A DNA stretch of 36,354 nt from a bacterium (GTDB lineage Bacteria; Patescibacteriota; Minisyncoccia; UBA6257; JAGOQP01): NCBI GenBank assembly GCA_021801825.1, contig JAJYXK010000019.1:1-36354 (forward strand), in the 5' to 3' direction. Of the stretch, positions 21 through 1,653 are shown piece by piece (position 1 is the first letter of the stretch; each line of letters starts with the position of its first letter). Made by a program: the position numbers and the translations under genes. The notes beneath the pieces are model-generated. The model saw only the letters and a program-made list of their open reading frames with translations, had not been told where the DNA came from and searched no databases.

Positions 21-91
21 TGCGGGATCGTCTAATGGTAGGACACATGACTCTGAATCATGTAATCTAGGTTCGAGCCCTGGTCCCGCAG
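21..91 (+). tRNA. tRNA-Gln (anticodon CTG)
   Basis: Acceptor TGCGGGA(21-27)/TCCCGCA(84-90), D-arm, anticodon loop CTCTGAA giving CTG, T-arm GGTTCGAGCCC. CCA is not encoded (gCAG follows). Confidence 0.93.
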
Positions 92-103
92 CAGTGTTCA
101 TGA

Positions 104-140
104 ATTAGTAGGACATATAACTCTAAATCATGTAATCTAG
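104..140 (+). pseudogene. Partial decayed copy of the upstream tRNA-Gln (D-loop through variable region only)
   Basis: Ungapped alignment at a constant +70 offset: 34-70 vs 104-140, 32/37 identical. Acceptor and T arms are absent. Confidence 0.75.
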
Positions 141-147
141 TTAACTT

Positions 148-194
148 CTACATAATATAAAAACCACCCAATAGGTGGTTTTTATATTATGTAG
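148..194. terminator. Bidirectional hairpin between tRNA-Gln(+) and the HEPN gene(-)
   Basis: Perfect 21-bp stem CTACATAATATAAAAACCACC / GGTGGTTTTTATATTATGTAG with a 5-nt loop, located between convergent genes. Confidence 0.8.
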
Positions 195-212: not shown

Positions 213-794
213 TTAGCCGACTTGTCTAATCCAATCACGAATATTCATCCCCACCCTCTCTATATCCTGCGGAGCCAATTCACCACTATGCATAATTACA
301 TTTCGAGATCTCTCTAACGACTCAATCACATGCTTTGCCCAATCCAAAGAATCAACGTGGGGTTCGAATTGGTCCCAATTTTGCCCCATTATAGATGCGA
401 GATCTCCAAACTCTGTGTAGCTTATCAGAGCATCTCCTCGAGGAGTGTGCCATCGAGCATTACTTTCGTCTTTTTTTCTCGATTCTGCTTTTATCCGAAT
501 TTTTTCTGAAACGCATTCTAACCACCAGTTTTCACCCTTGATTTCCATTAATTTCTTTGAAACAAAATCTCTTACGTAATTCTCAAAGGCACAAATGGCG
601 GTATATACCATTGCCATCCTCTTTGCTTTACTAACAAGTTCGCCTTCAAGCAATGATATTCCAAGTCTTTCGATCATCTCACGGCTCGCTTCTTCAGAAA
701 ACTTATCTCTACTGTGTCGGCCTGCTTTATCTAGGGATTGTTCCGTCAGCAATCCACGAAAGACAAAAGAATAAAAATCAGGAGATTGATCCAT
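213..794 (-). CDS. Swt1-like HEPN domain protein (putative RNase)
   Basis: 193 aa; pattern AICAFENYVRDFV...WW...YTEFGDLASIMGQNWDQFEPHV...ERSRNVIMHS, including a HEPN Rx4H motif (RNVIMH). Starts 3 nt after the stop of the upstream ORF. Confidence 0.72.
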   Translation of the reverse strand: MDQSPDFYSFVFRGLLTEQSLDKAGRHSRDKFSEEASREMIERLGISLLEGELVSKAKRMAMVYTAICAFENYVRDFVSKKLMEIKGENWWLECVSEKIRIKAESRKKDESNARWHTPRGDALISYTEFGDLASIMGQNWDQFEPHVDSLDWAKHVIESLERSRNVIMHSGELAPQDIERVGMNIRDWIRQVG

Positions 795-797
795 AGA

Positions 798-1415
798 TTA
801 GAATAAATGGTCTTTTAGGCTCTTAAAGATCGCGTCGTAAACGGCCTGGTCCCTAGATTCCGGAAGGTGGATCTGAATGTTATAGTGGAACTCACCTGTT
901 AATTGCGAAGTTGTAGACTTCGGTAGTTCCTTATTTTGTATAGTAGTCTCCTGCTTTGGTTTAGGTTCATCTATTTTCGGTTTTGGTCCTATTGTCCAAT
1001 CAGCATAATCACATAATGCCCTGAATGTATTTGCCATCAACTGAAGAACATTGTCGGTTTTCTTGCCCTGAGTGAGAGTTCTTAACTTGTTTTTTACATC
1101 CTGTGCATTCAGTTCATTAGCTTTGGTTTGCACCGCAAACAAATCCCCATACGCCTCCCTAATACCATCAGCTAAAACTTTCTTCGACTGCGTCTGATCC
1201 AAAAATTTATAATACCTGTCTTGAGGTACACCCGCCTCGTCAATAAAGCCCAAGCTCTTCATTAACCCTATGTATAAACGGTCATTGGAGCTCTTAAATT
1301 CTAAGGTTTCTAAGAATTTCTGCGTAAAACGTTCTGGAGCTTGAGCCGTAACCAAGGCATTAAAAAAAGCTTCGAGATTTTTACTAGTAATAAGATATGA
1401 GTTGGTAAGTGTCAT
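798..1415 (-). CDS. DUF5343-like domain protein
   Basis: 205 aa; PERFTQKFLETLEFKSSNDRLYIGLMKSLGFIDEAGVPQDRYYKFLD..SKKVLADGIREAYGDLF resembles DUF5343; C-terminal FHYNIQIHLPESRDQAVYDAIFKSLKDHLF. Confidence 0.72.
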   Translation of the reverse strand: MTLTNSYLITSKNLEAFFNALVTAQAPERFTQKFLETLEFKSSNDRLYIGLMKSLGFIDEAGVPQDRYYKFLDQTQSKKVLADGIREAYGDLFAVQTKANELNAQDVKNKLRTLTQGKKTDNVLQLMANTFRALCDYADWTIGPKPKIDEPKPKQETTIQNKELPKSTTSQLTGEFHYNIQIHLPESRDQAVYDAIFKSLKDHLF

Positions 1416-1589: not shown

Positions 1590-1630
1590 TATATGCAAAA
1601 ATAGTACCCCTGTGGTACTATTTTCATATA
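1590..1630. promoter_or_regulatory. Bulged hairpin in the divergent intergenic region upstream of the hydrolase gene
   Basis: AAAATAGTACC(1598-1608)/GGTACTATTTT(1614-1624), 11 bp, 5-nt loop; flanked after a 2-nt bulge by TATATG/CATATA. Confidence 0.55.
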
Positions 1631-1653
1631 TCTAAGAAGATTAACCAATAAAT

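Follow-up and report, generated by a model that had tools for sequence, protein, structure and literature searches.

Candidate defence systems that carry the prefix PDC come from a guilt-by-embedding screen and are mostly without experimental proof (PMC12988326; PMC11811056). One of them, PDC-M34, is an unpublished candidate of Payne et al. listed in PADLOC, and our literature search found no paper naming either PDC-M34 or DUF5343. Among HEPN proteins, Swt1 and Abi2/AbiF were placed in one group, in a survey that also includes Ymh and DUF4145 as HEPN families (PMC3710099), and AbiD/F was reported to co-occur with the RNA RF03085 (PMC12165695).

The window studied here, a stretch of 36,354 nucleotides, belongs to a 654-kb genome assembly (24 contigs, 92% complete). 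An earlier note on this DNA had described two minus-strand genes 3 nt apart beside a tRNA-Gln, with a hairpin on each side, and had read them as a candidate defence system. The open reading frames, the tRNA and both hairpins are indeed located there (Table 1), and the gene pair encodes products of 205 and 193 aa. The first product is a DUF5343 protein (PF17278; Pfam E-value 2.4e-45, 154.7 bits against a curated cut-off of 27) and the second is HEPN_Swt1 (PF18731; 1.5e-12, 48.2 bits against 27.5), as the note had assigned them. The Rx4H motif RNVIMH that it had pointed out occupies residues 164-169 of the HEPN protein, where E71, R75, W90-W91 and R164-N165-xxx-H169 stand out, and the separate C-terminal motif that it had seen in the DUF5343 protein, FHYNIQIHLPESRDQAVYDAIFKSL, was found as well. 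The candidate status of the pair is borne out independently by PADLOC: the DUF5343 protein matches PDC-M34A (2.6e-82, residues 1-204 of 205), and the product of the adjacent gene, across the 3-nt gap, matches PDC-M34B (1.8e-79, residues 2-193 of 193). Because both halves match, the pair is, as judged from its sequence, a member of the listed candidate PDC-M34 and hence no new system. The host of this copy has a genome of just ~0.65 Mb. Between the HEPN gene and the tRNA-Gln, a perfect 21-bp stem looks like a terminator common to both, and the closest relative, locus L012, has a similar hairpin in the corresponding position. There was no sign that the hairpin upstream of the pair is part of the module, and the homology with L012 stops at position 1478.

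Table 1. Features of the PDC-M34 pair and its surroundings, in window coordinates.
Feature	Position	Strand	Remarks
HEPN gene, second of the pair	213..794	-	Swt1-type HEPN protein, predicted RNase effector, PDC-M34B
DUF5343 gene, first of the pair	798..1415	-	PDC-M34A
Coding stretch of the C-terminal tail of the DUF5343 gene (EFHYNIQIHLPESRDQAVYDAIFKSLKDHLF)	801..893	-	proposed HEPN-docking or neutralising element; tail-HEPN association
Perfect inverted repeat, apparent bidirectional terminator, between HEPN gene and tRNA-Gln	148..194	.	fold -27.8 kcal/mol; counterpart in L012
Terminator-like hairpin upstream of the pair	1590..1635	.	fold -15.0 kcal/mol
tRNA-Gln (CTG), adjacent, probable insertion site	21..92	+	same arrangement in L012

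When 84,980 genomes were scanned, with DUF5343 as the sole query protein, 18 loci were obtained, spread over Patescibacteria, Bacteroidota, Chloroflexi, Firmicutes, Proteobacteria and others. The pairing across genomes that the earlier note had anticipated was evident: the HEPN gene is directly downstream of DUF5343 in all 17 evaluable M34 loci, the 18th stopping at a contig edge. The nearest copy, in a Candidatus Yanofskybacteria genome, has 87% amino-acid identity in each protein, which makes a patescibacterium the most likely host of the window pair. Six further pairs obtained by profile were added to the scan set and 23 pairs were compared. The intergenic gap is -4 (an ATGA overlap) in 13 of these and at most 16 nt in every pair but one, which is frameshifted. 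The mirror-tree distances of the two proteins are strongly correlated (r=0.952, 0/5000 shuffles), R164 and H169 of the Rx4H motif are invariant in 23/23 pairs, as are E71, R75 and W90, and pN is low while synonymous sites are saturated, indicating purifying selection in M34 pairs. Conservation, strong purifying selection and recurrence in several phyla together show that the arrangement is not due to chance. At one locus (L015 10606-11191, Uhrbacteria, beside tRNA-Ala) the HEPN gene is split by a frameshift and DUF5343 is intact.

In the AlphaFold2 model of the DUF5343 protein, residues 1-143 form a confident helical domain, residues 144-177 a linker that is disordered and residues 190-204 a C-terminal helix; the conserved tail covers residues 175-205. 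A globular N-terminal domain, a disordered linker and a C-terminal element make up the layout of many type II antitoxins. We read the predicted helix-helix-helix-hairpin start of the protein as wHTH-like. The HEPN protein is modelled as all-helical (pLDDT 81), and its top Foldseek match in the PDB is PbAbiF 8vz6, with probability 0.91 but an E-value of 0.79; neither protein had a Foldseek match with E<0.001. A known fold for DUF5343 was also sought and set aside, with no significant match among PDB or viral structures.

The tail of the DUF5343 protein consists of HYNIQIHLP and a helix at the C-terminus. As the peptide EFHYNIQI was one search pattern of the first scan, the invariance of the tail among the seeds follows in part from the search itself and was discounted, and the seed set gave way to DUF5343 proteins picked solely by the Pfam profile in the genomes of five taxonomic draws (53 loci, seeds removed). 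The tail model, made from the first set only, was scored on the 53 proteins; HEPN-type genes were sought at each locus in every reading frame. A tail was called at >=6 bits, a threshold picked after seeing the scores, which drop there from 6.3 to 1.6 bits. A HEPN-type gene was directly downstream in 18/18 loci with a tail versus 2/35 without one (Fisher p=2.9e-12, a value that overstates independence, as the loci are kin by descent). The two tail-less exceptions, L042 and L081, carry the tail in another frame. Both belong to a single M34 subfamily and have a break in the linker, past which the tail resumes in the -1 frame (L042 1850-2130, L081 1880-2130), with a run of eight A at the break in L081; sequencing error, decay, phase variation and programmed frameshift cannot be told apart as its cause. 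Tail-less DUF5343 proteins mostly stand alone and have TPR-like or DKFPxFDPxW ends, and for three proteins with weakly tail-like ends (L003, L102, L105) no partner was found. This association of the tail with a HEPN gene is new, is general beyond the listed pair and is the most useful outcome of the analysis. Regarding the suggestion of the earlier note that DUF5343 is a sensor, antitoxin or DNA-binding partner, the association newly supports a role as sensor or antitoxin partner. DNA binding is hinted at by the predicted topology, which we read as wHTH-like and for which no structure gave a significant match.

The HEPN genes that follow tailed DUF5343 genes are of several kinds. There are 20 partners, counting L042 and L081: 11 are Swt1/M34B, three are Ymh (PF09509, 6e-30 to 1e-28), four are DUF4145-like (3e-5 to 0.014, mostly below the cut-off) and two are unassigned. 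Five of the partner sequences were used to build the search models, and their HEPN call draws on Pfam and the motif rather than on the model. The DUF4145-like partners have GDKSAH and are without the canonical R of Rx4H, and because of this some tailed modules, by their sequence, may not be RNases. The two unassigned partners (177-178 aa, with RNxxxH or RHxxxH) are encoded at L055, a PglX/PglZ locus, and in its relative L056, on a short contig. In L055 (3158-11979) the tailed DUF5343 gene and that of the small RNxxxH protein lie between PglX and helicase/PglZ genes of a BREX-like locus. Pfam gives no match for the small protein, which may be a new HEPN family; hhalign did not link the L055/L056 partner to other HEPN profiles, and only the RNxxxH motif speaks for such a relation. 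Tailed relatives were also found within DUF1156 loci. The HEPN family itself occurs in other company: other members of the phylum carry the same Swt1-type domain as a fusion to GmrSD-like DUF262 proteins (L010, L011), and at L009 (401-2028) a gene for an SLFN/AlbA_2 protein is followed, 2 nt apart, by a Swt1-type HEPN gene, an alternative partner for the family.

These partners bear on what the tail does. If it were mainly an oligomerisation element of DUF5343, with the HEPN association reflecting the shared descent of one operon lineage, an intermolecular strand formed by tail residues would be conceivable, and the tailed proteins are to a degree related by descent. We find this rather improbable, as the position after a retained tail is filled by HEPN-type proteins of no fewer than three dissimilar families, and other DUF5343 proteins lose the tail and the pairing together. 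About as doubtful is an activator or targeting subunit, with DUF5343 taking the HEPN RNase to invader RNA or DNA and the tail serving as a constitutive docking strand. The same data are compatible with docking without inhibition, and the swapping of HEPN partners and the predicted wHTH-like topology would suit it; the HEPN protein, however, looks a complete conserved enzyme with no recognisable need for activation.

The distribution of the pair is patchy. DUF5343 was found in 1/61 near relatives and in 3/380 genomes of the phylum, where the other two copies are unpaired. The G+C content of the pair is below that of the flanks in all 18 scan loci; in the window it is 0.40, not below the 0.37 of the remainder. 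The L012 pair likewise adjoins a tRNA-Gln, there of another isoacceptor, and is arranged as in the window; its other side is flanked by a serine recombinase, a D12 methyltransferase and an AlwI restriction enzyme. In L015 and L028 the pair is <300 nt from a tRNA gene. A defence or mobile gene is near 10/24 M34 loci, a proportion for which no background rate was computed: restriction-modification genes at L012 (AlwI), L017 (MjaI) and L060, integrases at L019, GmrSD at L020 and L025, an OLD-like gene at L026, PARIS at L028, PDC-S28 and IS66 at L062, and TIR at L063. About 14/24 are without an evident defence or mobile neighbour. The mobile or defence context that the earlier note had proposed is upheld, by the patchiness, the adjacency to tRNA genes and the 10 loci with such neighbours, although the neighbourhoods are no more than suggestive; the ~14 others and the G+C of the window count against it.

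The tRNA-Gln is a probable insertion site. No clean empty site was found: the tRNA-Gln regions of relatives share no synteny with the window, whose contig begins immediately ahead of the tRNA, so that the left junction is not readable. No att duplication was found at the tRNA of L012 or L015. Just 3′ of the real tRNA-Gln, window positions 108-140 hold a 33-nt, 91% identical copy of its positions 18-50, without acceptor and T arms, which looks like a decayed partial duplication and is perhaps an insertion scar. At the tRNA-Gln loci of related genomes (L067, L070, L076, L077) the last nucleotides of the tRNA are repeated ~130-250 nt beyond it, where the repeat closes a small palindrome-rich element, often with a reversed GGATTCGAA box; in this family it may represent a short element that targets tRNA ends.

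No M34 copies were found in plasmid, phage and viral collections, nor in E. coli genomes by DNA similarity search. The plasmid result argues against a plain toxin-antitoxin system for stability or addiction, in which DUF5343 would autoregulate and neutralise the HEPN toxin with no dedicated phage sensing. The order antitoxin-then-toxin with ATGA overlap, the linker plus C-terminal element in the DUF5343 model and the many loci amid housekeeping genes with no defence neighbours would all be expected of such a system, but 72,556 plasmids, where addiction modules abound, contained no copy when searched with three M34 DUF5343 queries, and tailed relatives occur inside PglX/PglZ and DUF1156 loci. 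We consider it rather unlikely.

An RNA component was sought as well. The grouping of Swt1 with Abi2/AbiF, the reported co-occurrence of AbiD/F with RF03085 and the complex of PbAbiF with its ncRNA as top fold match would favour an AbiF-like system that needs a noncoding RNA. Such an RNA was rejected as a component of the pair: neither the window nor any of 8 loci gave a match to an Rfam AbiF RNA, no conserved noncoding flank is shared within five groups of close M34 pairs save 28 nt in one, and the window-L012 homology ends 63 nt ahead of the first gene. This explanation is mostly refuted and retains very little probability.

The reading that we favour, and hold to be probably correct, is that the PDC-M34 pair is a protein-only conflict module, with DUF5343 as a sensor or antitoxin that holds the HEPN RNase via its tail; the window pair would be a horizontally acquired copy, which we judge equally probable. 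Computed results behind this reading are the families, the conserved catalytic residues, the gene order, the co-evolution, the tail-HEPN association, the partner swapping, the mobile or defence context and the lack of a conserved RNA part. From here on we infer RNase activity, inhibition by the tail, a trigger and phage defence. DUF5343, made first, would be the dedicated partner of the HEPN protein. Its N-terminal wHTH-like helical domain would sense or bind a ligand, either nucleic acid or something made by a phage, and its C-terminal strand-plus-helix tail, on a flexible linker, would keep the HEPN protein inactive until the trigger. The HEPN protein would be a metal-independent RNase with R164/H169 as its active site, probably formed by a dimer, and once released by the trigger it could halt growth or phage production, resulting in abortive infection or dormancy.

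A broader version of this reading is more tentative, and we are nearly evenly divided over it. Here tailed DUF5343 would be a general sensor-adaptor through which HEPN-superfamily RNases could be exchanged for one another in bacterial immunity, from stand-alone PDC-M34 to BREX/PglZ-type islands, and the tail would be a peptide that docks and neutralises HEPN proteins and can be transferred. In either version DUF5343 gains a testable role, its short tail marking and probably controlling HEPN RNases of several families. Were the broader version true, the small gene after a tailed DUF5343 gene could be predicted to encode a HEPN-type effector, the tail would provide a small peptide with which to inhibit HEPN RNases, and simple two-gene modules would be tied to larger defence islands.

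Among described systems, those of the Abi2/Swt1 HEPN group, including AbiF/AbiD, share with the window pair the HEPN_Swt1 Pfam match and Rx4H, and AbiF is the top, though not significant, fold match; the window pair differs in that no noncoding RNA was found, in its DUF5343 partner and in a shorter HEPN protein. MntA-HepT (MNT/HEPN) toxin-antitoxin systems likewise have two small genes and a HEPN RNase effector (predicted here), but the HEPN family is another one and the partner in the window is DUF5343, not a nucleotidyltransferase, with Pfam giving DUF5343 only. With type II toxin-antitoxin systems in general, the gene order in the window and the predicted tail would be compatible. The GmrSD-like DUF262 fusions of L010 and L011 share a HEPN domain detected by the PDC-M34B model and have an RNAVKH motif, but there the domain is fused to a DUF262 nuclease protein, whereas in the window it is a separate protein paired with DUF5343. 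PDC-M34 itself has the same two-gene make-up and full-length matches to both window proteins, and nothing sets the window pair apart from it; it is the tail rule and the swapped HEPN partners that extend past the listed system.
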